A stretch of 25,512 bases of DNA from a virus. The notes under the pieces were generated by a model. The model made no database searches. It worked only from the letters and a program-made list of their open reading frames with translations, and was not told the DNA's origin. The position numbers and the translations under genes are program-made. Positions 995-24,812 of the stretch are shown here, in pieces (the first letter of the stretch is position 1; each line of letters begins with the position of its first letter). The stretch is taken from the IMG/VR virus record IMGVR_UViG_3300035670_001152, positions 1 to 25,512 of that record, one strand, 5' to 3'.

Positions 995-1011
995 GCTAAC
1001 AACCGATTAGC
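995..1011 (-). promoter_or_regulatory. 17-bp dyad element, copy 1 of 12
   Basis: The coding strand reads GCTAATCGGTTGTTAGC, with perfect 5-bp arms. The TAA of the first arm (1007-1009) is the stop codon of the chaperone extension. GCGCGTGGAG follows, and the tape measure start lies 25 nt further on. Confidence 0.75.
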
Positions 1012-1249
1012 GCCTGTTCCGCCGCGCCATCACCATGCGGTGATCGGCCCGTGCATGTTCCATTGCTTGCTCTCGTGTTAGCTTTTGGCCCTCCATGCGC
1101 CGGTTGATGTATCCATCGACCTGCGCCTTGGCACGCCACAAGGCCAATTCGCCCGCGCCCATGCGCATTTCCATCTCTGTCAACGTCATGCCGCCCAAAT
1201 CCCGGCACAGCTCCATCTTGAACAATAGATCGCTGTGCGGGTCTAGGAT
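1007..1249 (-). CDS. Tail assembly chaperone, frameshift extension (gpT-like)
   Basis: This frame has no convincing start of its own: the first candidate is a TTG at 1225 without a clear ribosome binding site. It is open from the slippery heptamer of the preceding gene. A -1 slip adds 80 residues (ILDPHSDLLFKMELCRDLGG onwards), giving a fusion of about 193 residues. The segment LTEMEMRMGAGELALWRAKA resembles the downstream half of chaperone pairs such as lambda gpG-gpGT, which coat the tape measure protein during tail assembly. It lies between the upstream chaperone frame and the tape measure gene, the diagnostic position. The stop falls inside dyad element copy 1. Confidence 0.82.
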   Translation of the reverse strand: MLDPHSDLLFKMELCRDLGGMTLTEMEMRMGAGELALWRAKAQVDGYINRRMEGQKLTREQAMEHARADHRMVMARRNRR

Positions 1250-1587
1250 TTTCCCCGCGCAGCGTCCTGCGCGGCCTGTGTCAACCCATTGATCTCCATG
1301 ATGCGCTGGCTGGCGCGCACGATCACCGCGCCGCTGGTTTCCAACAGCTCAGGAATGTCGGCCTCGGTGAACACCGGATCGACGCAGCCCATGATGAACA
1401 GCTTGACCAGCATGTTCGGGTCTCGTGACGCCTGATCAGGGTTGGCGCCCTGAAACAGATCCATCATCTCCTGTGTTCTGCCCACAGGCCACTCGCCCAG
1501 CAGGATCGATCCGCCCCATTCCGGGACCTCAAATTCTGCCGTGCGTAGTCCAGCCTTCAACACTTCTTTCTTGGTCAATCGTGCCAT
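1243..1587 (-). CDS. Tail assembly chaperone, upstream product (gpG-like)
   Basis: A 114-residue protein starting MARLTKKEVLKAGLRTAEFE. AAAGGA lies 7 nt before the ATG. Size, position between tail tube and tape measure genes, and a slippery site four codons before its stop identify it as the unshifted chaperone. The recurring text EFEVPEWGGSILLGEW matches the start of many siphovirus chaperones (modified tail-tube-like beta fold, by family knowledge). It is expected to work with the frameshifted fusion at a fixed ratio to load and protect the tape measure protein. It has no detectable catalytic motif. Confidence 0.85.
   Translation of the reverse strand: MARLTKKEVLKAGLRTAEFEVPEWGGSILLGEWPVGRTQEMMDLFQGANPDQASRDPNMLVKLFIMGCVDPVFTEADIPELLETSGAVIVRASQRIMEINGLTQAAQDAARGKS
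1249..1255 (-). other. Programmed -1 ribosomal frameshift site (GGGAAAA)
   Basis: The coding strand reads CGG GGA AAA TCC TAG in the chaperone frame. The heptamer G GGA AAA is a canonical X XXY YYZ slippery sequence in the correct phase. A -1 slip leads directly into the downstream frame, which is open for 80 more codons to 1007. The zero-frame stop is only two codons beyond the site. Confidence 0.88.
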
Positions 1588-1601
1588 AGTTAGGTCCTTT
1601 C

Positions 1602-2000
1602 CTACGAGCTCAGACTTTTGAGACGACGGAGCTCGCCATTACCTTTGAAAGTGTAGCCCACTCTGCCCAAGCTATCGAAGCCCGAGCCGGGCTGAATGCC
1701 AACGATCAAGGCGTTTCCCACATAGGTGAAATTCTCGTTCATCGCGAAACTCAGGGAGATTGGAGTGCCGGCGAGGAAGTTGTCCCAGAGTACATTGTGT
1801 TCGCTCTCCTTCATGTAGCAGCCCTCGAACGAACCAGACCACTCGTTGATCCCACCGTCGGGGAGACCCCAAGGCGAGCCGAACGAGCCGACAGTTAGCT
1901 CCACCGACGAAGTGTCTAGAGTCCACGATGTGATGTTCCCGATGGGCACGTCGTTGTCAACCGAGAGGACGTATCCCGCAGTGCCGCTGATTACACCCAT
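1602..2000 (-). CDS. Tail tube-like protein, paralogue 2
   Basis: A 132-residue protein beginning MGVISGTAGYVLSVDNDVPI. It aligns along its length with the next gene upstream: shared pattern ISGT-G, GN-(T/K)-W-LD, (S/A)FGS-W-L-D-GI-EWSGS-EG, LW, F-LG or F-G, and a C-terminal Y-FKG-G-L. This is the usual layout of small siphovirus major tail (tube) proteins, which form hexameric rings. AAGAGA precedes the ATG. A strong terminator-like hairpin separates it from its paralogue, so it may be made in lower amounts. It could be a minor tail or tube-decorating variant rather than the main tube subunit. Confidence 0.75.
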   Translation of the reverse strand: MGVISGTAGYVLSVDNDVPIGNITSWTLDTSSVELTVGSFGSPWGLPDGGINEWSGSFEGCYMKESEHNVLWDNFLAGTPISLSFAMNENFTYVGNALIVGIQPGSGFDSLGRVGYTFKGNGELRRLKSLSS

Positions 2001-2018
2001 TGTCTCTTTTCCAGGTGC

Positions 2019-2049
2019 AAAAGGGGCCAGCCGCGCGGCCGGCCCCTTT
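2019..2049 (-). terminator. Intrinsic terminator between the tail tube paralogues
   Basis: On the coding strand AAAGGGGCC (2049-2041) pairs with GGCCCCTTT, and the intervening 12 bases, which contain CCGCGCGG, can pair further. The stem ends in a short T run (TTTTG). It sits in the 66-bp gap between two genes in the same direction, so it probably acts as a partial terminator that lowers expression of downstream tail genes. Confidence 0.65.
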
Positions 2050-2066
2050 GCTGCCTGGGCCAGCCG

Positions 2067-2456
2067 CTACACCCGGGTCAGCGGCCCGTGGCCCTTGAAC
2101 GAATAGTTCGCCGCGCCCAGCCCATCGAAGGAGAGGCTCGGCGAGTGCCCGGTGATGACGGCAGTGCCGTGGAAGTAGTCAGCGGTGCCGAGGTAGAACG
2201 CCATGATCACTTTGGTCCCGCCCGTGAGGGCGCTCCACAACGCGGTCTGCTGCGCATCGGTGTCGTCGTAGTTCCCCTCGCACGACCCTGACCACTCCTT
2301 GATGCCGCTGTCCGTCAGGCGCCAGGATGAGCCAAACGCGCTGGCGTCCAGCTCGCCGGCGGCTACATCCAGGCTCCAGGTTTTCAGGTTGCCCACGACA
2401 GTGCCGGCCGTTCCACCGTATGCCACACTGCCCATGGTGCCGCTAATGACGGCCAT
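2067..2456 (-). CDS. Tail tube-like protein, paralogue 1 (likely major tail protein)
   Basis: A 129-residue protein, MAVISGTMGSVAYGGTAGTV onwards, with the EWSGSCEGNYDDTDAQQTALW core and a NYSFKGHGPL end shared with the following gene. This matches small phage tail tube subunits with one beta-sandwich domain. The start ATG overlaps the end of the glycosyltransferase gene by 14 nt and has GGAGG about 7 nt upstream, inside that gene. Being first of the pair and upstream of the terminator, it is the better candidate for the abundant tube subunit. Confidence 0.78.
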   Translation of the reverse strand: MAVISGTMGSVAYGGTAGTVVGNLKTWSLDVAAGELDASAFGSSWRLTDSGIKEWSGSCEGNYDDTDAQQTALWSALTGGTKVIMAFYLGTADYFHGTAVITGHSPSLSFDGLGAANYSFKGHGPLTRV

Positions 2457-3657
2457 GTCTGTTACCTCCGTTATTCAGGTCCTCCAGGACATCGACCAGC
2501 GTCGGGCGCCAGTAGTCCCGGACGAGCACGTCCCAGTCGAACTCTTCATGGATTGCCCAACTGGTCGCTTCACGTTTGCTGCGCAGCGTGCCGTTGGAGA
2601 GGGCCCGCCTCTCGGCCGTCAGCTGCAACATCGCCTCGGCAATCCCTGGCACGTTCGGGACCGCCTGCCAACTGTCCTGGTAAGTCCAGTCGAGGCGCTC
2701 CGGCTCTACCGCAACGCCCCACCGCACCAGCTCAGGCATTGAAGTGAAATTCGTAACGACCACCGGTGCGCCGCACGCCTGCGCCTCGACGATCGGAATT
2801 CCAAACCCTTCCCCGCGGCTTGGTCCCAGGTACACGTCCGCTGCGTTGTACATCAGGGCCAGATACCGCTGGTCATAGTCCCCGATCCATAGCTTGTACC
2901 GGTTCGGGAACCGCACGTAGTCGCTCAGCCCCATCGCCTTCACCACCGCGCCCAGATCCCCGCCTCCCAGCGTCTTGCTGTAGTCCGCATGGATGTATAG
3001 CAAGGCCGGCTGCGGCAGTTTGGGCAGCGCCTCCTTGAAGGCGAGGAGGGTCTCTACAAACCCTTTTCGACTGGGCCAGCCCTTGTTGGCTGAGACCATG
3101 ACTCCGAGCCAAGCCGCATCTTCGCACATTTTGGTGCGAAACTCGCGCACTTGGTCATCGGGCAGGATCTTGAACGTGTCCACCTCCACGCCGTGAGGGA
3201 TGTACACGTTCGGCACGCCGGCCTCTTCCAGCTTCTCCCGGCCAAACTTGGCGTAGGTGATCGGCAGGTACGCAGCCTTGGCCGGTTTGACCACGATCTC
3301 CGGGGCCGGGTCGTGATCCACCGGCAGCCATGGCAGCCACTTCGTCTCGCCCAGATCATCCACCACCTTCGGCTGGATCACCCAGATGTCAATCAGGGTG
3401 ACCAGGATGTCAGCGCGAAAATGTTCGCAGTGCGCCCCGTACATATCGTTTCCGTAGGGGTCCACCCCGCGCGGGTAGACCGGGATGTCACCCATCACCA
3501 TGCCGCCGCCCTCTAGGCCGAACCAGGCGAAGACGGCCACATCGTCTACCACATCCAGCTTCTTCAGGCGCGGCACCAGTGACCTTCCTTGCACGCCATA
3601 CCCCGACGCGCACCACGGCGCGTTGCTGGCATACATGATCCGTAACTTCTCTTTCAA
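2443..3657 (-). CDS. GT4-like glycosyltransferase (GT-B fold)
   Basis: A 404-residue protein. The N-terminal Rossmann half starts LRIMYASNAPWCASGYGVQG (donor- or acceptor-side glycine loop). The C-terminal half has VYLGPSRGEGFGIPIVEAQACG, in which E283 and E291 form the EX7E motif typical of GT4 enzymes that use nucleotide sugars. The conserved VPNVYIPHGVEVDTF region supports this. The start is taken as TTG at 3657, preceded by AAAGGAAG; an ATG eight codons in (3636) is possible. It sits between tail terminator and tail tube genes, overlapping the latter, so it is co-expressed with virion genes. A role in glycosylating a virion protein is inferred; substrate and sugar are unknown. Confidence 0.85.
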   Translation of the reverse strand: MKEKLRIMYASNAPWCASGYGVQGRSLVPRLKKLDVVDDVAVFAWFGLEGGGMVMGDIPVYPRGVDPYGNDMYGAHCEHFRADILVTLIDIWVIQPKVVDDLGETKWLPWLPVDHDPAPEIVVKPAKAAYLPITYAKFGREKLEEAGVPNVYIPHGVEVDTFKILPDDQVREFRTKMCEDAAWLGVMVSANKGWPSRKGFVETLLAFKEALPKLPQPALLYIHADYSKTLGGGDLGAVVKAMGLSDYVRFPNRYKLWIGDYDQRYLALMYNAADVYLGPSRGEGFGIPIVEAQACGAPVVVTNFTSMPELVRWGVAVEPERLDWTYQDSWQAVPNVPGIAEAMLQLTAERRALSNGTLRSKREATSWAIHEEFDWDVLVRDYWRPTLVDVLEDLNNGGNRHGRH

Positions 3658-3675
3658 TTCAGCTTCCTTTCTCGC

Positions 3676-3692
3676 GCTAACAAGCCGTTATC
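3676..3692 (-). promoter_or_regulatory. 17-bp dyad element, copy 2 of 12
   Basis: The coding strand reads GATAACGGCTTGTTAGC, two nt after the TGA stop of the tail terminator gene. The follower is the variant GCGCGAGAAAGGAAG, whose AAGGAAG serves the TTG start at 3657. Confidence 0.75.
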
Positions 3693-3693
3693 G

Positions 3694-4113
3694 TCAGGTG
3701 GGACGCACGTCGACCCGGAACAACGCGCCGTAATGCTGGTATGTCTTTCCCGCATCGACCTCCACATATTCCACGTCCGACTCTCGCCGCAACCGCACTT
3801 GCGTCCAGCCCGTCACACTCAGCGGCTTGTCCGTCAGCAGCGCATCGATCCGCTCGGCCATCTGCGCCGCCCGCAGGCCGGACGTGCTGGCGTCCACCGC
3901 CTTCACCAGGTACACCAGGCTGCGCGCGTCCCTAGCGGCAAACGTGTAACTGTCCGTCCCGGCCTGCTGCTGATAGACCACATACGGCTCCACGCTGCCC
4001 TGCGGCGCCTGAAAACGATACACGCCCGTGCAGCCCAGCGTGCCCAGGGTCCCGGCCGTGCCCGTCAGGTCTGCCGCCAGCCTGGTGTAGAGTGCCGTGT
4101 CGACCGCTCTCAT
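3694..4113 (-). CDS. Tail terminator / completion protein (DUF3168-like)
   Basis: A 139-residue protein beginning MRAVDTALYTRLAADLTGTA, with VYRFQAPQGSVEPYVVYQQ and a C-terminal beta region ending YGALFRVDVRP. This combination (LYxRLxxD near the start, APQG...PYVVYQ in the middle) is characteristic of DUF3168 tail completion proteins, which cap the tail tube at the head-proximal end. It starts with AGGAG eight nt upstream and overlaps the stop of the gp10-like gene by 4 nt (ATGA), so it is translationally coupled. Confidence 0.8.
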   Translation of the reverse strand: MRAVDTALYTRLAADLTGTAGTLGTLGCTGVYRFQAPQGSVEPYVVYQQQAGTDSYTFAARDARSLVYLVKAVDASTSGLRAAQMAERIDALLTDKPLSVTGWTQVRLRRESDVEYVEVDAGKTYQHYGALFRVDVRPT

Positions 4114-4451
4114 CGGCTGATCTCCTGTAGCATCTGCTTCATGGCCTCGATATAGGCCGGCGCCACCGCCTCAGCTGCGGGCGTCATGTAGGGCTGCGCG
4201 CTCATGCGCTTGGTGCCGTACTCCACGAAGGTGGCGTAGTCTGTGTGCGGGGCAATGATCCCGGTCAGCCCGCCATTCTCGAACTCCGTGCTGATCGAAT
4301 TCTTCAGCGCGCCCGTGTCCACCGGCACCCGGTTCTTGGCCTGGCCCTCCACGTCGAAGCTGGCCTTGCGCACCACCGCCGAGGCCCGATCCGGCATAGC
4401 CGCGGCGATCTCTGGGAAGCGGTCAAACTGGATCACCACCGTGGCGCTCAC
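4110..4451 (-). CDS. HK97 gp10-like head-tail / tail completion protein
   Basis: A 113-residue protein with the family signature NRVPVDTGALKNSIS in the middle and YATFVEYGTKRMSAQPYMTP near the C-terminus. HK97 gp10-like proteins join or complete the neck and tail of siphoviruses. It starts with GTG at 4451, preceded by GGAGG, and overlaps the preceding gene by 4 nt (GTGA). It is part of a tightly coupled run of connector genes. Confidence 0.88.
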   Translation of the reverse strand: MSATVVIQFDRFPEIAAAMPDRASAVVRKASFDVEGQAKNRVPVDTGALKNSISTEFENGGLTGIIAPHTDYATFVEYGTKRMSAQPYMTPAAEAVAPAYIEAMKQMLQEISR

Positions 4452-4807
4452 GCCCCCACCTCCGTGGCCACCACCCGCCGCGCCGTCTCCCAGGTGTGGG
4501 CAATCGCCGAGACGACCTCGAACGTCCGGCCATCGGCCACCACCCGATCCTTCGCCGTGATGTCCGTGGCGTAGGGAACCGTGATCACCCAGGCGTCGCT
4601 CTCCGTGATCCGGTCAGCGATCAGGCTCTCCGCGCCGCTCTCGCTGGCCGGCCACACCCGGCCGGAGACCGTCCCGGCCGCCGCCCACGTCTCCGTGTAG
4701 CCGCCCATGCCGTCAGCGATCAGCGTCTTGCGCGAGATCACACAGGTTCCGGTCATCGCCTGGGCCTGCACCGTCCGCATGTCCGCCAGTTCAGCCGCAC
4801 TCAACAT
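4448..4807 (-). CDS. Head closure / head-tail joining protein (SPP1 gp16-like)
   Basis: A 119-residue protein, MLSAAELADMRTVQAQAMTG, with GGYTETWAAAGTVSGRVWP and a C-terminal ITAKDRVVADGRTFEVVSAI. Small phage head-closure (stopper) proteins share this beta-barrel pattern, with a D-hydrophobic-hydrophobic-(V/A)DGRxFEV motif. Position immediately before the gp10-like gene supports the call. GTGGAG, contributed by dyad element copy 3, lies eight nt before the ATG. Confidence 0.75.
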   Translation of the reverse strand: MLSAAELADMRTVQAQAMTGTCVISRKTLIADGMGGYTETWAAAGTVSGRVWPASESGAESLIADRITESDAWVITVPYATDITAKDRVVADGRTFEVVSAIAHTWETARRVVATEVGA

Positions 4808-4823
4808 CGATCAAACTCCACGC

Positions 4824-4840
4824 GCTAACAACGTGTTATC
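4824..4840 (-). promoter_or_regulatory. 17-bp dyad element, copy 3 of 12
   Basis: The coding strand reads GATAACACGTTGTTAGC. The preceding T makes TGATAA, so the element supplies the upstream stop (TGA at 4839-4841). The GCGCGTGGAG follower contains the ribosome binding site for the head-closure gene. Confidence 0.78.
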
Positions 4841-5417
4841 ACGCCACATCGCCGCGCGTCATCAGCGAATAGCTCGGCTTGCTCAGCTTGTCGTAATACG
4901 TGGCCATCTCGCGGCAGTGCTCGAACCATTGCTGCCGGTCATAGGATGCGCCGTCCGCCGTGAACTTGTACAGGCTTGCTTTCTGGCCCATAAGTTCGCG
5001 CCAGCCGTCGGCCGCGGCCAGGGGCAGGTCGTAAGACCGGGCATCCACATACCGCGCGCTGCCCTTCTGATCCGCCGTGAACGTGAACACGCCGCGCAGG
5101 TAATCCGCGCTCCAGCCGGAGGAGATCGCCGAGCCGTTGGCGTCGTACAGCCGGAATGCCGCCGTGCCCGTAGCAGCCTCCTCCAGGTTCTCCCAGCCGG
5201 CCACGTGCACGCGATAGACCAGCGTGCCGCCGTCGTACTGTGGCGCTGGCTGAAGCTGGCCCTGGCATACGTCCGTGCGGTAACTGTCCAGCAGAGTCAG
5301 CGCCTCCGCATCCGTCCACACGCTGCCCGCGCTGTCGTTTACCATCCTACGCCATCGGGTCAAGATGTTGGCCATCCCGGCCCGGGAACCGCTCGCAGCC
5401 GTCCCGATGATCGTCAT
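4839..5417 (-). CDS. Putative head-tail connector/adaptor protein
   Basis: A 192-residue protein with an N-terminal helical part (MANILTRWRRMVNDSAGSVW, then TDAEALTLLDSYRTDVCQGQ) and a beta-rich middle (LVYRVHVAGWENLEEAATGT, GVFTFTADQKGSARYV). The helical start and its position directly before the head-closure gene fit a portal-adaptor protein of the gp6/gp15 type. Sequence similarity is not obvious by eye, so the role rests mainly on context. The start ATG is at 5417, just after the stop of the previous gene. Confidence 0.55.
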   Translation of the reverse strand: MTIIGTAASGSRAGMANILTRWRRMVNDSAGSVWTDAEALTLLDSYRTDVCQGQLQPAPQYDGGTLVYRVHVAGWENLEEAATGTAAFRLYDANGSAISSGWSADYLRGVFTFTADQKGSARYVDARSYDLPLAAADGWRELMGQKASLYKFTADGASYDRQQWFEHCREMATYYDKLSKPSYSLMTRGDVA

Positions 5418-5418
5418 G

Positions 5419-6006: not shown

Positions 6007-6009
6007 GCG

Positions 6010-6239: not shown

Positions 6240-7649
6240 CTATGCGGTGGGCGCGGTGTAGAACGGCACAAAATACACGCCGTCCGTAATCGAATTAGTG
6301 CCTTGATCGTCTTGCACGTATACCTTGACCCATCCGGCAATCGCGCCCGGCGTCGTCATGTTTGCCGCATCTACCAGTGACTGTGACGCGTCAGTCGTGG
6401 ATGTGCCGATGAAGCGCACAAACTCCTCAGAAACGTCAGTCTGTGTCAAGGTAAGGACCGGCACAGCTTTCGTTGTGCTGTTTTGCACGACGTGCAAGCG
6501 CGAGGCCGGGCTGTCAGTCCCAATTCCAACAAAGCCGGAATTGATGGGCTGTATCTGGATGTTTCCAGTAGCATCGTTAGTCTTAAGAATGACGTTGCGG
6601 CTTGCACCTGATGTTGTCAGCGTCAGATTTGCACCGTTATCCCAAATCTCAGCGACACGCAATATTGTGCTGTTCAGTACGGCCCGACCGCCGGTGGCGG
6701 ATATTTGCAGATACCCGCTGCTGTCTGTGTAGATGTTGGAATAGACAGAGCCCGCCGTGTAGGACAATCTCAGTTGGTTGGTCGTCGGGTTGACGATCTC
6801 CAGCTTTGTCGCAGCGGCCGCGGCTGTTGCGCCAATTACCACGTCCCCACCACCCAGACGATAGCCGCCCGTGAAGAATGATCCAAACACGTTTGCGGTG
6901 CCCACGGTGACGCCTGTGCCGCTGCCGTCCGCTATGGCAACACATCCATCTGCCGTGATCGTGGCTAGACGGCCAAAAGCGAACGAATACGAGCCGGTGA
7001 TATTGTTGTTCGCTCCGCCGAAAATCCCTGACCTGCTGCCAACGATGTTATTCTCAGTGCCTCCGAGGATCACGGAAAAGACTTTGTCTTTGTCCGTGAT
7101 CGTGTTGGCCGTGCCACTGAAAATGCCGCTCCGCCCGCTCTGTACCACGTTGAACGATCCACCGCCGATGACGCTATGCCCGTGGACACTGTACCGCATG
7201 AAGTTATGCCCGCCGCCGCAGATCGTCCCAGCAATCTGGTTGACGATGTTATCGTATCCCCCGCCGATTGTGGATACGATTGCTGATCCCGCCACGTAAT
7301 CGGTATCCTCTGCCCAGCCGGTCGGCAATGGGATATAGGTACTGTACTCTGGCAAGCCGTTCGGCGAGCCGATTAGGTTTGCCCCCGGATTGTTGCCGCC
7401 GCCTGCTATGGTGTTTGTGTTCGTCCCGCTCTCGATGGTATTGTTCGCCGCGTTGACGCAGTAGTTCTTCGAGCCTTCGGTGTAGGTGTCGATCGTGATC
7501 GCCCCGATATTGATCTGCGAACCGCCCAACACGAATTTGCCGGAGCTGTTGTCCCACAACACGGCACGGAGGTCAACGCCAGCCGCAGGCGTCACGTTAA
7601 CATCGTGCTGGTCTTGCAGCCTGGTTACGGTCGGGGTTGCGATTGCCAT
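6240..7649 (-). CDS. Fibre-like protein with YadA-head-like repeats (putative head fibre)
   Basis: A 469-residue protein. After an N-terminal domain (TVTRLQDQHDVNVTPAAGVD onwards) come repeated turns of the form NxIxGGxxNxI (TNTIAGGGNN, VSTIGGGYDNIV, SGIFSGTANTI, VILGGTENNI, SGIFGGANNNI), as in left-handed YadA-like head repeats of trimeric adhesins. A beta region and a GFVGIGTDSPASRLHV segment follow, familiar from phage fibres. No S74 chaperone domain is visible. The ATG at 7649 is chosen because AGAAGG precedes it; an in-frame TTG at 7667 has no support. Its place between capsid and connector genes suggests a head fibre, though a tail fibre is possible. Confidence 0.7.
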   Translation of the reverse strand: MAIATPTVTRLQDQHDVNVTPAAGVDLRAVLWDNSSGKFVLGGSQINIGAITIDTYTEGSKNYCVNAANNTIESGTNTNTIAGGGNNPGANLIGSPNGLPEYSTYIPLPTGWAEDTDYVAGSAIVSTIGGGYDNIVNQIAGTICGGGHNFMRYSVHGHSVIGGGSFNVVQSGRSGIFSGTANTITDKDKVFSVILGGTENNIVGSRSGIFGGANNNITGSYSFAFGRLATITADGCVAIADGSGTGVTVGTANVFGSFFTGGYRLGGGDVVIGATAAAAATKLEIVNPTTNQLRLSYTAGSVYSNIYTDSSGYLQISATGGRAVLNSTILRVAEIWDNGANLTLTTSGASRNVILKTNDATGNIQIQPINSGFVGIGTDSPASRLHVVQNSTTKAVPVLTLTQTDVSEEFVRFIGTSTTDASQSLVDAANMTTPGAIAGWVKVYVQDDQGTNSITDGVYFVPFYTAPTA

Positions 7650-7676: not shown

Positions 7677-7693
7677 GCTAACAGGCCATTATC
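7677..7693 (-). promoter_or_regulatory. 17-bp dyad element, copy 4 of 12
   Basis: The coding strand reads GATAATGGCCTGTTAGC with follower GCGCGTGGA. Unlike most copies it lies about 50 bp after the upstream stop (7742), downstream of a terminator-like hairpin, and 27 nt before the fibre ATG. Confidence 0.72.
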
Positions 7694-9633: not shown

Positions 9634-9673
9634 GCACGTTTTCAGCTTACCACACTGAAAACGTGCATGTCAA
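9634..9673 (-). promoter_or_regulatory. Palindromic promoter-like element P1 (before scaffold/capsid genes)
   Basis: TTGACA on the coding strand (9668-9673) is followed, after 17 nt, by GTAAGC (or TAAGCT after 18), a weak -10 in a TGTG context. Spacer and -10 lie in a perfect 12-bp inverted repeat (9634-9645 and 9655-9666) with a 9-base centre. A transcript would start about 25 nt before the scaffold gene. The same core recurs at 19218-19262. The stem has no T run on either strand, so a terminator is less likely than a promoter with overlapping operator. Confidence 0.6.
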
Positions 9674-9692
9674 TAGCTGCCGATTTCCACGC

Positions 9693-9709
9693 GCTAACAT
9701 GCCCTTATC
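9693..9709 (-). promoter_or_regulatory. 17-bp dyad element, copy 5 of 12
   Basis: The coding strand reads GATAAGGGCATGTTAGC. It overlaps the TGA stop of the MuF gene (TGATAA) and is followed by GCGCGTGGA, then by the -35 of P1 about 12 nt further on. Confidence 0.76.
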
Positions 9710-10766: not shown

Positions 10767-11007
10767 CTCCGAGCAGCTCCTTGCTGACCCAGCCCAGCGC
10801 AGCCACCGGCACCCAGCCATTTTCTTCCAGCCCGATCCGAACAATCCGCACGCCGGGCTGCAAGACCGCAACATGCGGAAGATTGATCGATGGTCCACTG
10901 CGCAGCTTCGCAGCGCTATTGGTCGACGCCTCGTCCATCGTCGGGCGCCAGCCCGTTTGATCCTCGAACGCCGCCAGGATCGTCATCTCGCCAATCTGCA
11001 GTGTCAT
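10759..11007 (-). CDS. Unknown 82-residue protein in the head operon
   Basis: The protein starts MTLQIGEMTILAAFEDQTGW and ends WVPVAALGWVSKELLGDA. It looks like a small alpha/beta protein without membrane segments or metal ligands. Its ATG overlaps the methyltransferase stop by 4 nt (ATGA), with GGAGG upstream, and its end overlaps the MuF start. This strict coupling supports expression. No family recognised. Confidence 0.65.
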   Translation of the reverse strand: MTLQIGEMTILAAFEDQTGWRPTMDEASTNSAAKLRSGPSINLPHVAVLQPGVRIVRIGLEENGWVPVAALGWVSKELLGDA

Positions 11008-11456
11008 GTTGCCTCCAGTTTGCGAAGAACCGCATGGATGTTAGCCAGGTCAATGCCAAGCTGGACGATCTCCCACTTCTTGGCCGTGTAGAAGCCATAC
11101 TTCTGGCCCCACTGGGTGCGCGGGTCCAGGTAGTGAAAGGTCTCCGGGTGATAGCATCGCACGTGCGTAGGATCGATCACCGCGTTCGGGCTGTTCCACA
11201 TCGGCGTGCGCACAGCCGCCACGCCGCCCGGCCGCAGGATGCGCCACACCTCGTCGAAGAAGCCGATGAAGCCCATGTGCAAATGCTCCAGCAGGTCTTG
11301 CGCCACCACCTGGTCGAACGAGCCATCAGGCCATGGCCATGGCGTCAATTCCAAGTCATGCGCCACATCCACCCACGGCGAATGCGACGTCAGGTCATGG
11401 TTCACCGCGCCGTCCAGCGGCTCATTGCCGCAGCCCAGGTTCAGGATGGTGGCCAT
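11004..11456 (-). CDS. SAM-dependent methyltransferase (Methyltransf_11-like, short)
   Basis: A 150-residue class I methyltransferase. Motif I is ILNLGCGNEP (residues 4-13), followed by VNHDLT, SFDQVVAQDLLEHL (motif IV region with EH) and FDEVWRILRPGGVAAVRTP. The core is short, with a compact C-terminal substrate region (RTQWGQKYGFYTAKKWEIVQ). It overlaps the preceding glycosyltransferase by 16 nt and the next gene by 4 nt. By association it may methylate a glycan or protein made or modified by the neighbouring glycosyltransferases; the substrate is not visible in the sequence. Confidence 0.82.
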   Translation of the reverse strand: MATILNLGCGNEPLDGAVNHDLTSHSPWVDVAHDLELTPWPWPDGSFDQVVAQDLLEHLHMGFIGFFDEVWRILRPGGVAAVRTPMWNSPNAVIDPTHVRCYHPETFHYLDPRTQWGQKYGFYTAKKWEIVQLGIDLANIHAVLRKLEAT

Positions 11457-13798: not shown

Positions 13799-13815
13799 GC
13801 TAACAAACACTTATC
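13799..13815 (-). promoter_or_regulatory. 17-bp dyad element, copy 6 of 12
   Basis: The coding strand reads GATAAGTGTTTGTTAGC, follower GCGCGCGGA. Its TAA (13811-13813) is the stop codon of the 27-residue membrane microgene. The zinc-ribbon gene starts 19 nt later. Confidence 0.74.
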
Positions 13816-15215: not shown

Positions 15216-15232
15216 GCTAATCCGTCGTTAGC
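15216..15232 (-). promoter_or_regulatory. 17-bp dyad element, copy 7 of 12
   Basis: The coding strand reads GCTAACGACGGATTAGC with 5-bp perfect arms. It begins one nt after the TAA stop of the CHAT-like gene; the follower is AAAGGAG, the portal ribosome binding site, instead of GCGCGTGGA. Confidence 0.72.
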
Positions 15233-15233
15233 A

Positions 15234-16379: not shown

Positions 16380-16396
16380 GCTAATCAACTGTTACC
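16380..16396 (-). promoter_or_regulatory. 17-bp dyad element, copy 8 of 12
   Basis: The coding strand reads GGTAACAGTTGATTAGC, the most divergent copy (GG instead of GA/GC in the first arm). It lies between the large terminase stop (16408) and the membrane protein ATG, only two nt before that start. Confidence 0.6.
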
Positions 16397-16407: not shown

Positions 16408-17787
16408 CTACAAGTAAAAAGGGTTCTCGGACGTTTCGACCGGTTCATATCCAGCCAACCGCATGAGACCATAGACCATAGCATCCACCAGATCGTCATG
16501 AGCGCCATTCGGAAATGTCAGCATCTCATGCACGAGGGCATCCACATACGGACCGTTCACGATCCGTACCATCCCGCTCTCGAAGAAGCGGGTGACGCTG
16601 TTCGCCCTGGCGACCTTATCACCAGCCGGCTCGATCTCAATCATAGGCAGCCCGCTGAACCTCAGTTGCTGCCGCAGACTCTTGCCGCTGGCCCGGGCCT
16701 CCACAAGCTGCTCCGCAGTTGGCCATCTGGCCACCTGCGCCTTGACGGCCCGCACAAGTTCTGGAAATTCGAGCCGATCATGCACAAGCGGCTGCACGTA
16801 GATCATGCCGTCCTCGGCCTGGCCGACCAACACCCCGGCCGAGTAGTCGCTGCTCTCCTTGCTCTCAAACGCCGTGTCCCATACGACACCAGAACGTGCC
16901 AGGACAGGCACAGTCTCTGCGTATGATAGCCAGGCAGCCTTGAAGACGTTTCCTTCTTCCTGGCGCGGCTCCTGATCATACAGAGCCGCCCAGTCGCGCT
17001 CGCCAATGCTGGCCTTCGTCTGGAGCAGCGCCGCGCGGTCGTAGCGCTGCGGATCGAGCGCCTCGCCAAGATCTCGGCCCAATGGATCCGCGGCCTTGGC
17101 CAGCCCAGCCAGCTTGATCACATGCCACTGGTCAGCGGTTGGGTTGTCCGCTGCCAGCTTCAGCAGCCGGCCGGCCAGATCATCCTCATGCCAGCGGGTC
17201 ATCACCAGTACGATTCTGCCGCCCGGCTCTAACCTGGTGCGCAGGGTGGACGTGTACCAGTTCCACGTGCTTTGCCGGAAGGTGGCGCTGTCGGCCTCTG
17301 CCCGGTTCTTCACCGGGTCATCGATGACGATCACCTGACCGCCCTTGCCGGTGATAGGTCCGCCCACGCCAGCAGCCTGCAAACCGCCACGCTGACCGGC
17401 GATCTTCCACCGCTGCACCGCCCGACTGTCGGCCGCTAGTGCCACATCCGGCGAGGTCTTCACCTCAACCAGGCGCCTGCCGCCGAACAACTCGGCGAAT
17501 TCCTCGCTGGCCACCACGCCCCGGCACTCGCCAGATTTGTCCCACGCCAAATCGGCAGCGTAGGACGTGTACAGCATCGGCCATTCCGGGTGCCGGCCCA
17601 GGCACCAGGCCAGCCAGCGTATAAGCAGCTCGGTTTTTCCAGTGCGAGGCGGCATGAACACCATCAGCCGCCGCACCTCGCCGCGCTCCACAGACTCCAG
17701 TTGCTCGGCGAGGAACGTGTGAACGAATCCCGGCCTGTACCAGGGAGCCGTGTACATCGTGAATTCAATCAACCGGCGCCGGGCCAT
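16408..17787 (-). CDS. terL: Terminase large subunit
   Basis: A 459-residue protein from the chosen start. The ATPase part has Walker A VFMPPRTGKTE (residues 43-53), Walker B VIVIDD (152-157) and coupling motif VLVMTRWHEDDLAGRL. The nuclease part has VVWDTAFESKESSDYSAG (D304, D314) and GAHDDLVDAMVYG (D431, D432, D435), the C-terminal signature of the TIGR01630-type terminases. It packages DNA through the portal. The frame is open to an ATG at 17874, but that start would overlap the small subunit by 110 nt; ATG 17787 leaves a 23-nt overlap and keeps the usual family beginning (MARRRLIEFTMYTAPWY). Confidence 0.93.
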   Translation of the reverse strand: MARRRLIEFTMYTAPWYRPGFVHTFLAEQLESVERGEVRRLMVFMPPRTGKTELLIRWLAWCLGRHPEWPMLYTSYAADLAWDKSGECRGVVASEEFAELFGGRRLVEVKTSPDVALAADSRAVQRWKIAGQRGGLQAAGVGGPITGKGGQVIVIDDPVKNRAEADSATFRQSTWNWYTSTLRTRLEPGGRIVLVMTRWHEDDLAGRLLKLAADNPTADQWHVIKLAGLAKAADPLGRDLGEALDPQRYDRAALLQTKASIGERDWAALYDQEPRQEEGNVFKAAWLSYAETVPVLARSGVVWDTAFESKESSDYSAGVLVGQAEDGMIYVQPLVHDRLEFPELVRAVKAQVARWPTAEQLVEARASGKSLRQQLRFSGLPMIEIEPAGDKVARANSVTRFFESGMVRIVNGPYVDALVHEMLTFPNGAHDDLVDAMVYGLMRLAGYEPVETSENPFYL

Positions 17788-18373
17788 CTCCGTGCGCAGC
17801 GCCTGCTGGCCTCTGGGCGATGCGAGCCAGCGCAGCGAGTTCCGCGTCTGTGAGGCTGCCGAGGTCATACACATCCACTCGTTGCTCGATGCTGGCGGGC
17901 GAGCTCGGCCTGCCCAACTTGCTGCCGGTCTCTGGCTCAGCCCACCGCATCAGTGTCTCAGCCGCCGCTATCCGATCGGCGCCCTTCTGGTCAGCGCCGT
18001 CCATCACCTGGGCCAGCGCCGCCGGCGCCTTCGCGCTGTACTCTGCAATCGCCCGCCGGCGCGTCCTGCGGTGCTGCTCCTCGATGGAGACCGTTTCGGC
18101 GTCTACCCAGTCCAGCGCCCGCGCCCGGCACGCATCGAACGCCGCGGCCACTTCTGGGATGTCCTTCCACTTGCTCCACCAAATCTGCTCGGCGCACGTG
18201 TCCGGCCGATCAAAGACCGTCTTCAGCGGCGCCGACGTGGCATAGGCAAACGCCAGCAGGATCACCGTCCGCCGCTTCTTCGCTTCCCACGGCCCCGGGA
18301 TCGCACTCAACAGCCGGCTGATCTCCGGCGTCATCCACTGCCAGCCTTCAGGTTCGTTCACTCGCACAGTCAT
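17765..18373 (-). CDS. Probable terminase small subunit
   Basis: A 202-residue protein starting MTVRVNEPEGWQWMTPEISR. The N-terminal half has a helix-turn-helix-like order (RRTVILLAFAYATSAPLKTV followed by WWSKWKDIPEVAAAFDACRA), the middle is helical, and the acidic C-terminus ends ELAALARIAQRP. Small terminases recognise the packaging site with such an N-terminal domain and recruit the ATPase. Position directly before the large subunit supports the call. An ATG at 18373 is used; the TTG before it is unlikely. No good ribosome binding site is visible, only dyad element copy 9. Confidence 0.72.
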   Translation of the reverse strand: MTVRVNEPEGWQWMTPEISRLLSAIPGPWEAKKRRTVILLAFAYATSAPLKTVFDRPDTCAEQIWWSKWKDIPEVAAAFDACRARALDWVDAETVSIEEQHRRTRRRAIAEYSAKAPAALAQVMDGADQKGADRIAAAETLMRWAEPETGSKLGRPSSPASIEQRVDVYDLGSLTDAELAALARIAQRPAGAAHGDGPAPVD

Positions 18374-18384
18374 CAAGAACGCCC

Positions 18385-18401
18385 GCTAACTGCTTGTTAG
18401 C
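18385..18401 (-). promoter_or_regulatory. 17-bp dyad element, copy 9 of 12
   Basis: The coding strand reads GCTAACAAGCAGTTAGC; its 5-bp arms are perfect and a sixth bp is lost to a one-base offset in the centre only. It lies 11 nt before the small terminase ATG and abuts an 11-bp direct repeat. Confidence 0.72.
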
Positions 18402-19217: not shown

Positions 19218-19262
19218 GACATTGCCGTTTTCAGCTTATCACACTGAAAACGGCAATGTCAA
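19218..19262 (-). promoter_or_regulatory. Palindromic promoter-like element P2 (before the lysis-like genes)
   Basis: TTGACA (19257-19262 on the coding strand) is followed by the same TGTGATAAGCT core as P1, with TAAGCT 18 nt after the -35. The palindrome is larger than in P1: 17-bp perfect arms (19218-19234 and 19244-19260) around a 9-base centre. It occupies the gap between the 39-residue membrane gene and the 113-residue membrane gene. Confidence 0.6.
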
Positions 19263-19286
19263 CAGGGCGTGCGCAAAACTTAGATG

Positions 19287-19606: not shown

Positions 19607-19622
19607 CGCTCAGACTCCACGC

Positions 19623-19639
19623 GCTAAGAATGCGTTATC
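19623..19639 (-). promoter_or_regulatory. 17-bp dyad element, copy 10 of 12
   Basis: The coding strand reads GATAACGCATTCTTAGC with follower GCGCGTGGAG. Here the TAG inside the second arm is the likely stop of the 38-residue frame upstream, and the follower carries the ribosome binding site of the next gene. Confidence 0.74.
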
Positions 19640-19720
19640 ACACCAACCTGGAGCACCTGGTGCGGCCACAGGTGTGGCTTCGCCAGAAGCTCATCCAACC
19701 ACGCGCGCCGCTGGTCAAAC

Positions 19721-19740: not shown

Positions 19741-20620
<880 letters not shown>

Positions 20621-20644
20621 GATGTCAGTCCTCGTTGTCAGTCG

Positions 20645-20873
20645 CTTAGCCTTGCCACGCCTGCCTTGCCATGCCGCGCCATGGCCAACCTTGCCGGGCC
20701 GTGCCCAACCTGCCTAGCCCAGCCTAGCCAAGCCCGACCTAGCCAATCCAAGCCTGCCCTGCCATGCCTCGCCATGCCTCGCCGTGCCTTGCCATGCCTG
20801 CCTCGCCGCGCCAGGCCAGGCCTGGCCAGGCCCGGCCCTGCCCAGCCGCGCCTGCCGTGCCGTGCCTGCCGTG
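20645..20873. repeat. Degenerate 5-bp-periodic repeat tract (NNGCC), possible origin
   Basis: On the plus strand the tract reads in steps of five, for example TAGCC CAGCC TAGCC and TGCCT CGCCA TGCCT, for about 45 units with occasional phase slips. It fills the gap between the gene ending at 20875 and the replication gene starting at 20620. Open frames on both strands here are by-products of the repeat. Adjacent to a replication initiator, iteron-like origin function is possible but unproven. Confidence 0.8.
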
Positions 20874-20874
20874 C

Positions 20875-21474
20875 TCATTCGACGTGTTTCGCCTCGACCA
20901 CATGGAACATGCCCCACTGGCCGTCCCGCTGCGGTCGGTGCTCGCCGACGCCGATACTGAAGCCGGCCACGTTGAACAGGTTGGCGATCTGGTCAAGGCT
21001 CAACACGCCAGCGTTGTAGCGGATGTGCAGAGTCGCTTTCCAGGTCGGGAACTCTGGCCGGATGCGAACGTCCGCCGTCCCCATCGCGATGCGCACCATG
21101 TCTTGACGTTGCACCGGGCCGGTGTAGTCTTCCAGCGGCACGATTTCGCCATCAACATGAAACGCGCCGCGGGCAGCGACCTTGGTCAAGTCGGAGACGT
21201 GGGAGCAAGCATCAACCGCTGCGGCCTTGAAAGCGATAGCGGGAAAACCGTAGCATCCGTCAGGCGTCTTGTAGAAGCACTCCTCGTACAGCGCTTCGGG
21301 GTCCTTCGCTTCCTTGGCCTGCTTGGCTTTCTTCATCTGCTTGTCGAGAATTTCCTGTTTGGCCTTAGCGCTCCACGCGTGCACGACCAGTGGGCTGTCG
21401 CTCGCCAGCACAATCACTGCGCGGCGAATGTCGATTGGCAGAATGTCTGCCTGTGCCGTTTTCTTTGCTACCAT
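20875..21474 (-). CDS. Phage protein of unknown function (replication/recombination region)
   Basis: A 199-residue protein. VIVLASDSPLVVHAWSAKAK opens a beta region, followed by a Lys-rich helix (DKQMKKAKQAKEAKDPEALY), GCYGFPAIAFKAAAVDACSH and a C-terminal NVAGFSIGVGEHRPQRDGQW then GMFHV. The last motif (G-x-I-G-x-G-E-x-R-P-x-x-D-G-x-x-G-x-F) recurs in many phage proteins located beside replication and recombination genes. I cannot assign an activity. GAAGGAG lies before the ATG; dyad element copy 11 is about 55 nt upstream. Confidence 0.65.
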   Translation of the reverse strand: MVAKKTAQADILPIDIRRAVIVLASDSPLVVHAWSAKAKQEILDKQMKKAKQAKEAKDPEALYEECFYKTPDGCYGFPAIAFKAAAVDACSHVSDLTKVAARGAFHVDGEIVPLEDYTGPVQRQDMVRIAMGTADVRIRPEFPTWKATLHIRYNAGVLSLDQIANLFNVAGFSIGVGEHRPQRDGQWGMFHVVEAKHVE

Positions 21475-21528
21475 CGTCTGATCTCCTTCTGAATGATTGA
21501 TCGAGCTCGAGTGCTCGAATTGTCAGGC

Positions 21529-21545
21529 GCTAACAATGTCTTATC
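21529..21545 (-). promoter_or_regulatory. 17-bp dyad element, copy 11 of 12
   Basis: The coding strand reads GATAAGACATTGTTAGC, overlapping the TGA stop of the 76-residue gene (TGATAA). The follower GCGCCTGAC is a weaker match, and an extra 14-bp palindrome-like GAGCACTCGAGCTC stretch lies between it and the next gene. Confidence 0.72.
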
Positions 21546-21774
21546 ACCGGGAGACGTGATTGACCACGATCTCCTCAGCTTCCTCGCGCATCTGCAAGGC
21601 CCAGGTCTCCAACTGCGCCGCACCCGCCAGCAGCACTGCCCGCCGCTGCTGCGGTACCATCTTGCCAACCGGCCGGCGATGCCGGATCACGAACCGCATC
21701 GAGTAGGCATCCTGCGCCGCCTCGATGGTGATGGGAGGCTGACTCTTGACCAGCCGATGGGATAGATCGATCAT
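21544..21774 (-). CDS. Unknown 76-residue protein
   Basis: The frame starts MIDLSHRLVKSQPPITIEAA and contains YSMRFVIRHRRPVGKMVPQQ and the helix LLAGAAQLETWALQMREEAE. The ATG overlaps the stop of the ParB-like gene by 4 nt, and the stop falls in dyad element copy 11. Basic middle, acidic end; no recognised family. Confidence 0.62.
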   Translation of the reverse strand: MIDLSHRLVKSQPPITIEAAQDAYSMRFVIRHRRPVGKMVPQQRRAVLLAGAAQLETWALQMREEAEEIVVNHVSR

Positions 21775-23132
21775 AGCTCACCTCTGCTCTGTGTTTGCCG
21801 AATCATGTCCAGCATCCAGTGCTGACCGGCGTCGTCCAACTCCAGCCACGGCGGGTTTTTGCTGCCGTTGCTCATCTGCACCAAAATGCGGCCATCCTCC
21901 GTGATCGTGCCGCGCGTGCGCCGCCAGTCGATCACTGTCTCCACCTGCTCGGCGATGTCCACCGGAACGAACGGCGCCACGCGCGTCCGCGCCCGCTCCG
22001 CGTCCGCCGCCATCGCAGCAGCCTGGGACCGGGTTAGGCGCTCGCGCCGTTCGTTGTCGGCGCGCTGGCGTGGGACGGCCATGCGCATGGCAAAATCGAA
22101 GTCCCGCCGCCCAAACGTGCGATTATGTTGGACGGCGATGCCCTGCATGTACTCATACAGCCAGTCGTGGTCGACGCCGTCCAGCGCGACGCTCTCTAGC
22201 GCCACCAGTTCCTCAACCAACTCTTCGACGATCCACGGCTCTATCGGTTTCGGCTTGCAGGCCCTGGCCGGCGGCTCGACCTCCACCCGCTCGGCCATGT
22301 CCACCGGCTCGATCTCGGCCAGCACCGCGCTGATCGCCGCCCCCAGCATCCCTGCGCTGTACTTCCCGTCGATCCAGTTCATCCAGTCGTCCCAGTAGGA
22401 TCCCTTCCGGCCAATGCTCTCGCTGTTCAACCCGCGCAGCGCCTGGGCCGGGTCCTCCCACACATCCGCCCACCCCCGCACCTGCGCCGTCAATTCGGCC
22501 AGGCTCAGCCATTTGCCTTCCTGGGCCGCCACGGCTGGCGCTGCGCTGCGTTGCGGGGTGGCCATCGTGTATTCTGTCCCGTTCCGCTGGACTCGCCGTG
22601 TTTCTATCTGGCAACCGTTGCCAGATAGCTCCGCGCGCAGGTTGGCCACCAGCGTGTGGCTCACTGCGCAGCGCCGGGCGATCTCCCGATCCGACCACCG
22701 GCCCCACTCCTCGTCTTGCAGGAGGGCCATCACCGCCCGCCGCTTGTCCTCGTTCGTGCGACGGAAGCCGTGCGTCGCATTGGCCCCAACCGACAGCAGC
22801 ACGGCGTCCCGCCGCGTGCCCTGGCGGACGTGCGCCAGGATTGCCCGGTCGCCGTCCTTGCGCCAGGCATGGAACCGGTGAAAGCCATCCCACAGCCAAT
22901 AGTCCGCCCCATCAAAAACAACCTCGATGGGGGGGAATTGTGCGCCGCTGGCCATGTCCGCGTAGTAGTCATCCACCACGGCCTGGCTGATGCCAGCTCG
23001 CGGTTGGGTGCCACCGTCTAGCCGAACTTTGACGGTGCTGATCCGTTCGGCAGCGGGACCGATGGCTAAGTCCAAATCGTCAATCGCCTGGTCGATTCGG
23101 GCCAGAATGTCAGGGGTTGGTTGGCGTGTCAT
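21771..23132 (-). CDS. ParB-like nuclease/DNA-binding domain protein
   Basis: A 453-residue protein. Residues about 30-105 are a ParB/sulfiredoxin-type domain with ADYWLWDGFHRFHAWRKDGD (DGFHR at 82-86, the nucleotide-binding loop in ParB-like domains). Residues about 125-168 contain a helix-turn-helix (DKRRAVMALLQ, then WSDREIARRCAVSHTLVANL). The remainder is a long, partly acidic region (VEELVEELVALESVALDG) and a C-terminal beta part. It could regulate transcription, act in DNA processing or partition; the data do not decide. The ATG at 23132 overlaps the preceding stop by 4 nt, which makes the longer frame unlikely. Confidence 0.78.
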   Translation of the reverse strand: MTRQPTPDILARIDQAIDDLDLAIGPAAERISTVKVRLDGGTQPRAGISQAVVDDYYADMASGAQFPPIEVVFDGADYWLWDGFHRFHAWRKDGDRAILAHVRQGTRRDAVLLSVGANATHGFRRTNEDKRRAVMALLQDEEWGRWSDREIARRCAVSHTLVANLRAELSGNGCQIETRRVQRNGTEYTMATPQRSAAPAVAAQEGKWLSLAELTAQVRGWADVWEDPAQALRGLNSESIGRKGSYWDDWMNWIDGKYSAGMLGAAISAVLAEIEPVDMAERVEVEPPARACKPKPIEPWIVEELVEELVALESVALDGVDHDWLYEYMQGIAVQHNRTFGRRDFDFAMRMAVPRQRADNERRERLTRSQAAAMAADAERARTRVAPFVPVDIAEQVETVIDWRRTRGTITEDGRILVQMSNGSKNPPWLELDDAGQHWMLDMIRQTQSRGEL

Positions 23133-23524
23133 GATGCGTCTCCAACGGGTCCAATGGGCTTGTGTAGCCAGCAGACCCATGTTTCTGGGGGAACGATTGT
23201 GGTCTGTGATGACCATCCGAGGTCGTTGGATACCATAGTCGGCACGGCGAACTTTTGCACTGCAGACGATGGTGCACGCCTCTGATCACCGCAAACCATG
23301 CAGGTGATGGTGATCCGTTTCGGCGCCGGCGGGACTGGCTCAAACCGCCAACCAATGACGCGTCCGTCGTCGTCTCTGATGTGTCCATCGATCGGGACAG
23401 CTCGCGCCTTCTGGTTGGCCTGCCCGCATGTGGCGCACACCGCGGGCATGGATGATCCTCTAGTGTTACGCCAGTGCGTGAGATGGCCGTTCGGACAAAT
23501 CGCTGTTGGCATCATGCACCTCAT
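23129..23524 (-). CDS. Double zinc-ribbon protein
   Basis: A 131-residue protein. Metal-ligand-like sites are CPNGH (10-14), CATCGQ (30-35) and CMVCGD (75-80), with a late CWLH. It is otherwise short beta strands (GHIRDDDGRVIGWRFEPVPP). A nucleic-acid-binding or structural zinc role is likely. The ATG at 23524 overlaps the methyltransferase stop by 4 nt; ATGs at 23515 and 23512 behind GAGGTG are equally possible starts. Coupled to the ParB-like gene by another 4-nt overlap. Confidence 0.65.
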   Translation of the reverse strand: MRCMMPTAICPNGHLTHWRNTRGSSMPAVCATCGQANQKARAVPIDGHIRDDDGRVIGWRFEPVPPAPKRITITCMVCGDQRRAPSSAVQKFAVPTMVSNDLGWSSQTTIVPPETWVCWLHKPIGPVGDAS

Positions 23525-24603
23525 AAGCCTGCTTCTGGGCCGTGGGTCTGCTGGATCAGCCGTTGCAGGTTGCGCACGGTGTACTCCAGCGCATCGATCC
23601 TCTTCGTTAGCCGTTCCACATCGCCGCGGCGCATCGTGCGCTCATTTTCCAGAGCGCATTCCATCTCCGCCAGCCGCACTCCGTTGCACTCGTGCTCCAC
23701 GTCATAGCACAGCACCCGGCTGCCGTCCGGTGCCGGTTGCTCGCAAACTTCGGCATCGATCCCGTTCATGATGGTTTCGCTTTCGAGCATCACACACCAC
23801 GTGATGCCGCTTTGCTCCTTCTGGTACGTTCCCACCCTCCAGCCTGCCGTTTCGCACAGGCGAGCCAGGCTGTCCGGGTCGCGCTCGATCACCCGCCACC
23901 TCATGACCTCGCGCATCAGAAACGACCACGGATTGCGGTCGAGATTGGTCAATGCCACCCGCGTACAGGACAGAGCGAGCCGGCGCAGCAGGCCGATAGC
24001 CAGGGCGTCCGGCAGATAGTCGAATAGCCCGGAAGCGACCGCCAAATCATAGCGCCGCGCGGTCACTTGTTGTGACCGCAGCACATTTTCCAGCGTCCAG
24101 TCGCTGCATACTGATACAGCGTTCGAGACGTTGCGCCGAGCGTACCCTAGCGCCTCCGCATCGCTGTCGATCAGAAAGATTCTCGTATTAAGCCGCGGTA
24201 CCACGTTCTGCACCTCGTACCCCGGCCCGCAGGCCAATACGAGGATGTTTCCCGTCTCGAAGTGGTGATCGATAGAATCTTGGATCTGCCGACCTATCCA
24301 GGCAATTTTGCGCCGGTGCTGATCTACTATCGGGGCATGCAGTAGATGATACTCCACTGCGCCGGGCATTGTGGAGAGGTCTCCGCCGCCGCGCTCATAT
24401 TCCATCATCATGCGCACTACGCGCCAATCCCCAACGCCATTCGGCAGATTCATGGCATAACTCAGCGTCGGAGCGACGGCCGGGTCGTCCAGGATCGTCC
24501 GCAATCGCTCAACGTCCCGACAGATCCCAAGCTCCAACTCTGCCAGCCAGCTGCTGAAGACAGCGATATGATCGTGATAGGCGGTCATTGGTTGATCGTC
24601 CAT
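23521..24603 (-). CDS. Class I SAM-dependent methyltransferase, PhcB-like
   Basis: A 360-residue protein. An N-terminal helical domain (1-115, with VVRMMMEYERGGGDL) precedes motif I ILVLACGPGYEVQN (120-133), the acidic end of strand 2 FLIDSD (143-148) and DLAVASGLFDYLPD (186-199). ACGPxxE and GLFDYLxD are features I associate with the methyltransferases that make 3-hydroxy fatty acid methyl ester signals (PhcB type). A coiled coil (about 310-352: RLAEMECALENERTMRRGDV) ends the protein. Substrate is unproven; it could modify DNA, lipid or a signal. GGAGG lies eight nt before the ATG at 24603. Confidence 0.7.
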   Translation of the reverse strand: MDDQPMTAYHDHIAVFSSWLAELELGICRDVERLRTILDDPAVAPTLSYAMNLPNGVGDWRVVRMMMEYERGGGDLSTMPGAVEYHLLHAPIVDQHRRKIAWIGRQIQDSIDHHFETGNILVLACGPGYEVQNVVPRLNTRIFLIDSDAEALGYARRNVSNAVSVCSDWTLENVLRSQQVTARRYDLAVASGLFDYLPDALAIGLLRRLALSCTRVALTNLDRNPWSFLMREVMRWRVIERDPDSLARLCETAGWRVGTYQKEQSGITWCVMLESETIMNGIDAEVCEQPAPDGSRVLCYDVEHECNGVRLAEMECALENERTMRRGDVERLTKRIDALEYTVRNLQRLIQQTHGPEAGL

Positions 24604-24607
24604 GTCA

Positions 24608-24784
24608 TCAGCCTCCAGTCACCCAGCACACAAACATCGGATAGGTCGTCAACCGGCCGCCCGGCTGGTCGCTCTTGCACCAGCACACCGCCCGGCCCTT
24701 GTGCATCCGCACCTGGCACATTAGTTTCGAGGCCGGCGCAGCCAGCACCATCACCAGCACCGCCAACATGATCCATTGTTTCAT
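24608..24784 (-). CDS. Small secreted or lipoprotein-like Cys-containing protein
   Basis: A 58-residue protein, MKQWIMLAVLVMVLAAPASK followed by LMCQVRMHKGRAVCWCKSDQ. The first 18 residues are a signal peptide; the mature part has four or five Cys (MCQV, VCWCK, VCWV), suggesting disulphides outside the cytoplasm. The ATG at 24784 is chosen for the AGGTGA six nt upstream; an in-frame GTG at 24793 is the alternative. It ends four nt before the methyltransferase gene. Function unknown; superinfection exclusion is one possibility. Confidence 0.6.
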   Translation of the reverse strand: MKQWIMLAVLVMVLAAPASKLMCQVRMHKGRAVCWCKSDQPGGRLTTYPMFVCWVTGG

Positions 24785-24795
24785 GGTTTTCACCT

Positions 24796-24812
24796 GCTAA
24801 GTCCTTGTTAGC
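24796..24812 (-). promoter_or_regulatory. 17-bp dyad element, copy 12 of 12
   Basis: The coding strand reads GCTAACAAGGACTTAGC with perfect 5-bp arms. Its TAA (24808-24810) is the stop of the upstream membrane gene, and AGGTGA directly after it serves the next gene. Confidence 0.74.

Follow-up and report, generated by a model that had tools for sequence, protein, structure and literature searches.

Dyads dispersed over the gene junctions of an uncultured phage are candidate recognition sites of a tyrosine recombinase

What reads a short sequence that a phage repeats at one gene junction after another? The question is raised by the virus record IMGVR_UViG_3300035670_001152 of IMG/VR, analyzed here in its entirety (25,512 nt; "the window"), in which a dyad element recurs 12 times. 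The window is a fragment of a tailed-phage genome and encodes terminase, portal, head, scaffold, and connector proteins; the lysogeny genes lie outside these 25.5 kb. An earlier, sequence-only reading had described a 17-bp element and proposed that it is a repressor operator or stoperator, an RNA processing or mRNA hairpin site, or a translation-restart cassette. Our comparison with related phages gives about an even chance to a different answer, in which the dispersed dyads are recognition sites, lox-like in form, of a tyrosine recombinase (IntA).

A pattern search of the window found all 12 copies of G(A/C/G)TAA-N7-TTAGC where they had been placed, on the minus strand, which is the coding one. 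A GGTAA start is specific to the copy at 16380; the other eleven fit G[AC]TAA-N7-TTAGC. A looser search (two mismatches, both strands) returned 38 matches against 12.6 expected, the maximum in 100 shuffles being 27; the reversed pattern, searched as a control, had no match in the window. The placement in gene junctions also held: none of the 12 copies lies inside a gene (P ~2e-13, with junctions occupying 8.7% of the window), and overlap with a stop codon is 5 bp at most. The genes are those of a simple home-made gene caller, and a 38-amino-acid open reading frame ending in the copy at 19623 was discounted by hand as a nongene. As described earlier, the upstream stop codon overlaps or ends in the first arm in five copies (995, 4824, 9693, 21529, and 24796), and GCGCGTGGA directly follows the copies at 995, 4824, 7677, 9693, and 19623. 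The copies are evenly spaced at roughly one per 2 kb, a feature previously unremarked, with a coefficient of variation of 0.42 versus 0.79 for randomly drawn junctions (P = 0.008 to 0.010).

Alignment of the copies revealed a larger unit than the 17-bp element, namely an imperfect inverted repeat of approximately 13-7-13. The window half-site is TTAGCGCGTGG (about 11 to 13 bp), and two inverted half-sites enclose exactly 7 unconserved bases. The GCGTGG following TTAGC is the outer arm of the half-site; its mirror image, (C)CACGC, lies to the left of the left arm at 7677 and 24796, and the outer-arm pair occurs in inverted copies in the relative G007. Because the outer arm is mirrored here and inverted in relatives, GCGTGG is unlikely to be a ribosome-binding feature, and may sit near one by chance. 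Pattern searches with varied spacing gave near-zero counts for spacings other than 7 in site-bearing phages. Among relatives, the core and the 7-bp gap are constant and the outer arms are clade specific. Of 66 sites, 48 have AA at one end of the spacer only; no site has it at both ends, against 8.7 expected. The end bearing AA served to score site orientation. Inverted 11- to 13-bp half-sites around a fixed, unconserved spacer of the 6- to 8-bp class are the form of lox/dif-type core sites.

Relatives were traced by terminase and pattern searches (G001, G002, G003, G004, G007, G015, and G016), and three more (G426, G428, and G429) were added via the integrase; no relative was obtained with the portal protein or by megablast of the window against phage records. 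Four genomes with end repeats of 121 to 127 bp were counted as complete, and these carry 16 (G016), 12 (G015), 6 or 7 (G426), and 8 (G429) dyads. There are 12 or 13 copies in G001, 14 in G003, 9 in G002, and 9 or 10 in G428, which is a fragment. The half-site reads TTATCAGTCGG in G001, G015, G016, and G023; TTATCNGTACAG in G003 and G426; TTAGCGGACCA in G428; and TTAGCAGAACT in G429. Sites are more evenly spaced than random junctions in G001, G003, G015, and G016 too (P of 0.005 or less); unlike the window, the relatives have one to three sites per phage inside genes. Conservation of position, which the sequence-only reading had taken as a test of its element, was found in part: about half of the testable sites have a counterpart at the same junction of some other phage, and many others are about one gene off, with a background of 0.2 to 0.46 at the tolerance used. 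Junction-level conservation across phages is thus suggestive. Identical spacers in different phages (e.g., GGGTTTG in G015 and G016) were not at homologous junctions and are therefore read as spacer bias.

The comparison showed each copy to be a double-stranded DNA site rather than an RNA element. Left and right arms pair no better within copies than when shuffled in five phages (Watson-Crick P = 0.10 to 0.94), leaving no sign of compensatory change, and an A.G mismatch interrupts the stem in 7 of the 12 window copies. The called genes of G016 are all on one strand, yet its sites point six one way and eight the other; orientation is mixed in G015 as well, and sites occur at convergent junctions in G001, G003, and G015. 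Within the window, six of the eight scorable copies are oriented alike, so a bias is possible there. An alternation of site orientation, seen in G015, failed in G001 and G016.

In the complete relatives we found genes for two tyrosine recombinases, IntA (~400 amino acids) and IntB (~310 amino acids), the latter similar to XerA/XerD. A dyad lies ~330 to 450 bp upstream of intB in G001, G003, G015, G016, G023, G426, G427, G428, and G429, and in eight of these nine phages a tRNA 3' fragment separates the two (none was recognized in G015). In the related element H371, from an Anaerolineae-class genome, a 48-bp direct att repeat starts in the anticodon loop of tRNA-Pro. The idea that the dyad is the attP core of IntB was rejected; the core is tRNA derived and separate from the dyad, and half-sites of the dyad kind flank it. 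G023 (38 kb) has five half-sites by profile (six by a looser search), all within an att region of ~500 bp beside the integrase gene, and lone half-sites are nearly restricted to the att region in G001, G015, and G016. Their layouts in this region comprise dyads, inverted pairs with wider gaps, and direct repeats ~21 to 24 bp apart adjoining the int start. One signal is used around attP and int and, in certain phages, across the whole genome. Among IntB phages without the motif, other dyads near intB formed no clear dispersed family. A dif-like sequence, TTTTCATAAgaaaaTTATGTAAACT, lies ~384 bp upstream of intB in L435.

Which protein recognizes this signal? Tyrosine recombinases are the only family common to all nine genomes compared. 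IntA identity splits by half-site type without overlap (59 to 70% for the same type, at most 40% for different types). The ranges overlap for IntB (45 to 76% versus up to 52%), CI (21 to 53% versus up to 36%), and the RHH protein (38 to 46% versus up to 40%). The half-sites also go with IntA: among 31 IntB loci (those with enough flank, the cut being set by hand), TTA[TG]C half-sites in the att region averaged 4.4 with IntA versus 0.6 without, and eight IntA-positive loci outside the motif definition still had 2.75 versus 0.56 (P = 0.0003), statistics that ignore kinship. The catalytic-type residues of IntA are intact (R234, K263, H349, R352, H375, and Y384). IntA is thus the leading candidate reader, and from its presence in the relatives we infer that the window phage encodes it.

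Several observations weigh against this assignment. The window, as a fragment, contains neither an intA nor an intB gene. Its nearest complete relative, G426 (11 to 13 genes in common), has both, yet bears an unlike outer arm of the GTACAG type. IntA was not detected in G428, a fragment with 9 or 10 dyads, and G023, G427, and several further IntA-positive phages have no dispersed copies, so dispersal is not explained by IntA alone. A recombinase core site would not usually comprise lone and directly repeated half-sites like those of the att region. Searches for recombined genomes, for break points at sites, and for rearrangements found none, a weak test given the few near-identical records, and no attB-like sites were found in hosts. 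The tracking of half-site type by IntA, finally, covers nine phages and few independent lineages.

Among other readers, the best placed is a different phage regulator, such as a directionality factor of the Cox/Apl/RdfS kind, whose operators at the attP/int promoter and, in some phages, at many junctions would serve as repressor, roadblock, or insulator sites. The flexible half-site layouts of the att region suit an oligomerizing regulator, and such factors bind att regions and control promoters as well (PMC11963761); no such gene family is common to all site-bearing phages, although small divergent proteins could escape detection. We regard this as possible but unlikely, and it is the form in which the earlier repressor-operator proposal survives. 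The phages' own CI protein is disfavored as the reader: the CI/RHH divergent region is free of sites in five relatives (G001, G003, G015, G016, and G023), and half-site type does not follow CI (G003 and G426 have the same half-sites, and their CI proteins are 21% identical). Stoperators, at which a CI-type immunity repressor would halt transcription in the lysogen, are therefore quite improbable. The comparison with them was apt in that many short DNA sites are dispersed between the genes of temperate phages in an L5-like layout; it fails in that an L5 site is an asymmetric 13-mer to which a monomer binds, oriented with transcription (PMC9283540), versus 33-bp dyads here, whose orientation in relatives such as G015 and G016 is mixed and untied to transcription.

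We give even less credence to the dyads being arm-type or core sites of IntB. Half-sites do lie on both sides of the tRNA-derived core, and cluster K mycobacteriophages have 11-bp arm-type repeats around the core upstream of int (PMC3203893). However, the attP core is the tRNA sequence and not the dyad, different repeats in the att region resemble the arm sites of IntB itself, IntB identities overlap between like and unlike half-site types, and half-sites are mostly missing from IntB loci without IntA. An RNA hairpin, processing site, or translation-restart cassette is very improbable, for although several copies overlap a stop codon and continue into GTGGAG-like bases close to starts, GCGCGTGGA is the outer part of the half-site and is mirrored (CACGC) elsewhere, the arms do not covary, most window copies have A.G mismatches, sites in relatives occupy convergent junctions and ignore the direction of transcription, and a site is present in a noncoding att region.

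Three further candidates were rejected. ParB is present in the window phage, G003, G023, and G426, and is not found in G001, G015, or G016; the RHH protein was not detected in G426 to G429; and, against a host-encoded system, the full G001-type site (up to three mismatches) occurs in 0 of 396 Anaerolineae-class genomes. The bare core GATAA-N7-TTATC is modestly above its reversed control in most of these genomes, and pairs of it ~63 bp apart were noted at G253:C9:119-198 and G363:C10:86150-86230. Relatives of IntB at E values of 1e-75 or better occur in 33 of the 396 genomes, assembled as the class of an Anaerolineae genome, which makes Chloroflexota the likely hosts and, by indirect evidence, the probable host phylum of the window phage.

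If IntA is the reader, this recombinase, separate from the integrase proper (IntB), would bind the inverted half-sites. The site, found next to the attP core and int promoter too, has spread in this and several other lineages to 6 to 16 gene junctions at fairly even intervals. Since the 13-7-13 form with unconserved spacers is of the lox/dif type, IntA might synapse sites that share a spacer, or recombine them, between sister or coinfecting genomes; alternatively, IntA bound at the dyads might insulate or silence. This leaves two functional readings: the dyads are recombination sites whose spacers are private, or they bind protein so as to silence, insulate, or organize. The first is favored by the 13-7-13 form and the apparently active (predicted) recombinase, and the second by the lack of observed exchange and the other half-site layouts of the att region. 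The most specific version is doubtful: IntA would recombine only matching 7-bp spacers, such that coinfecting relatives swap modules at homologous junctions with gene order unscrambled. Were it true, it would provide a site-specific route to phage mosaicism. If the sites recombine at all, the old idea of exchange signals at phage module boundaries could be tested directly; should they bind protein and nothing more, they would amount to a new way of controlling a whole genome, in uncultured phages that probably infect Chloroflexota.

The individual copies, all on the minus strand, differ in arms and context. Copy 1 (995..1011) reads GCTAA-tcggttg-TTAGC followed by gcgtgga, with the TAA stop of the upstream gene inside the left arm; copy 2 (3676..3692) is GATAA-cggcttg-TTAGC; and copy 3 (4824..4840), GATAA-cacgttg-TTAGC plus gcgtgga, overlaps a TGA stop. 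Copy 4 (7677..7693) has an outer arm on each side (cacgc-GATAA-tggcctg-TTAGC-gcgtgg), and both its junction and its spacer are identical in L022/G006. Copy 5 (9693..9709) lies at the junction of the head-morphogenesis/scaffold genes, which is also occupied in G006 and G007. The portal gene has copy 6 (13799..13815; GATAA-gtgtttg-TTAGC) downstream and copy 7 (15216..15232) upstream, the latter at a junction occupied in G007 as well. The GGTAA variant, copy 8 (16380..16396), is downstream of the terminase large subunit gene, and copy 9 (18385..18401), upstream of the gene at 17765-18376, has a spacer orientation opposite to most copies. Copy 10 (19623..19639) reads GATAA-cgcattc-TTAGC plus gcgtgga, copy 11 (21529..21545) overlaps the TGA stop of 21544-21774, and copy 12 (24796..24812), with a strong half-site (cacgc) at its left, is inverted relative to most copies.

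Other features of the window lie beside this array. At ~9638-9682 and 19227-19272 (minus strand), and near 6366 in G007, TTGACAT is followed by the palindrome GTTTTCAG-TGTGNTAAG-CTGAAAAC, an arrangement that resembles a promoter plus operator. In the window, the two copies have different letters in the outer stem yet keep complementarity, and the G007 version is at a homologous junction. Short, imperfect, GGCA/GGCT-rich repeats fill ~250 bp (20640-20890, minus strand) between the 20875-21474 gene and a replication-type gene, and a CAGCAA repeat run (20055-20115) encodes a glutamine-rich stretch of the 19721-20620 gene. The ParB-like partition protein (21771-23216; PHROG match) has homologs in G003, G023, and G426, that of G003 adjoining a ParA-like gene. 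Putative methyltransferases are encoded at 23521-24603 (borderline Pfam Methyltransf_25 match) and 11004-11456 (from reading of the sequence alone).

Dispersed repeats at phage gene junctions, such as stoperators, start-associated sequences (SAS), and extended SAS (ESAS), have been known for years; our literature search, with most subscription journals outside its reach, found no report of the present array. The pdif sites of plasmids are XerC/XerD sites with a 6-bp spacer, and they shuffle modules, whereas no shuffling was seen among the dyads. In the dif modules of Acinetobacter plasmids (PMC13141974), many tyrosine-recombinase-type sites likewise lie between gene modules. Known sites of the arm type and of directionality factors (cluster K, PMC3203893; ICEMlSym, PMC11963761) also flank the attP core upstream of int; those described lie in the att region, as in G023, whereas the dyads are also genome-wide. 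Like the dyads, L5-type stoperators (PMC9283540) belong to temperate phages and form a single sequence family with more than a dozen members scattered between genes; apart from their asymmetry, monomer binding, and orientation, they differ in also occupying repressor-controlled promoters. Nearest in form are the ESAS (PMC3203893) that cluster K mycobacteriophages carry at scattered gene junctions; these too are imperfect inverted repeats, and their reader and function were reported as unknown. As in the dyads, one half is nearer to the consensus, half-site letters vary by subcluster, and sites are kept at homologous genes. ESAS halves are 17 bp with spacers of 4 to 13 bp, whereas the dyad spacer is always 7 bp; ESAS accompany a 13-bp SAS at start codons and belong to the nonstructural half of the genome, whereas the dyads include structural genes and the tabulated flanks of the window copies contain no SAS or second conserved element. 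To these older arrays, the present comparison adds evidence for a protein of the recombinase family as candidate reader and for a link between a dispersed array and the attP region.

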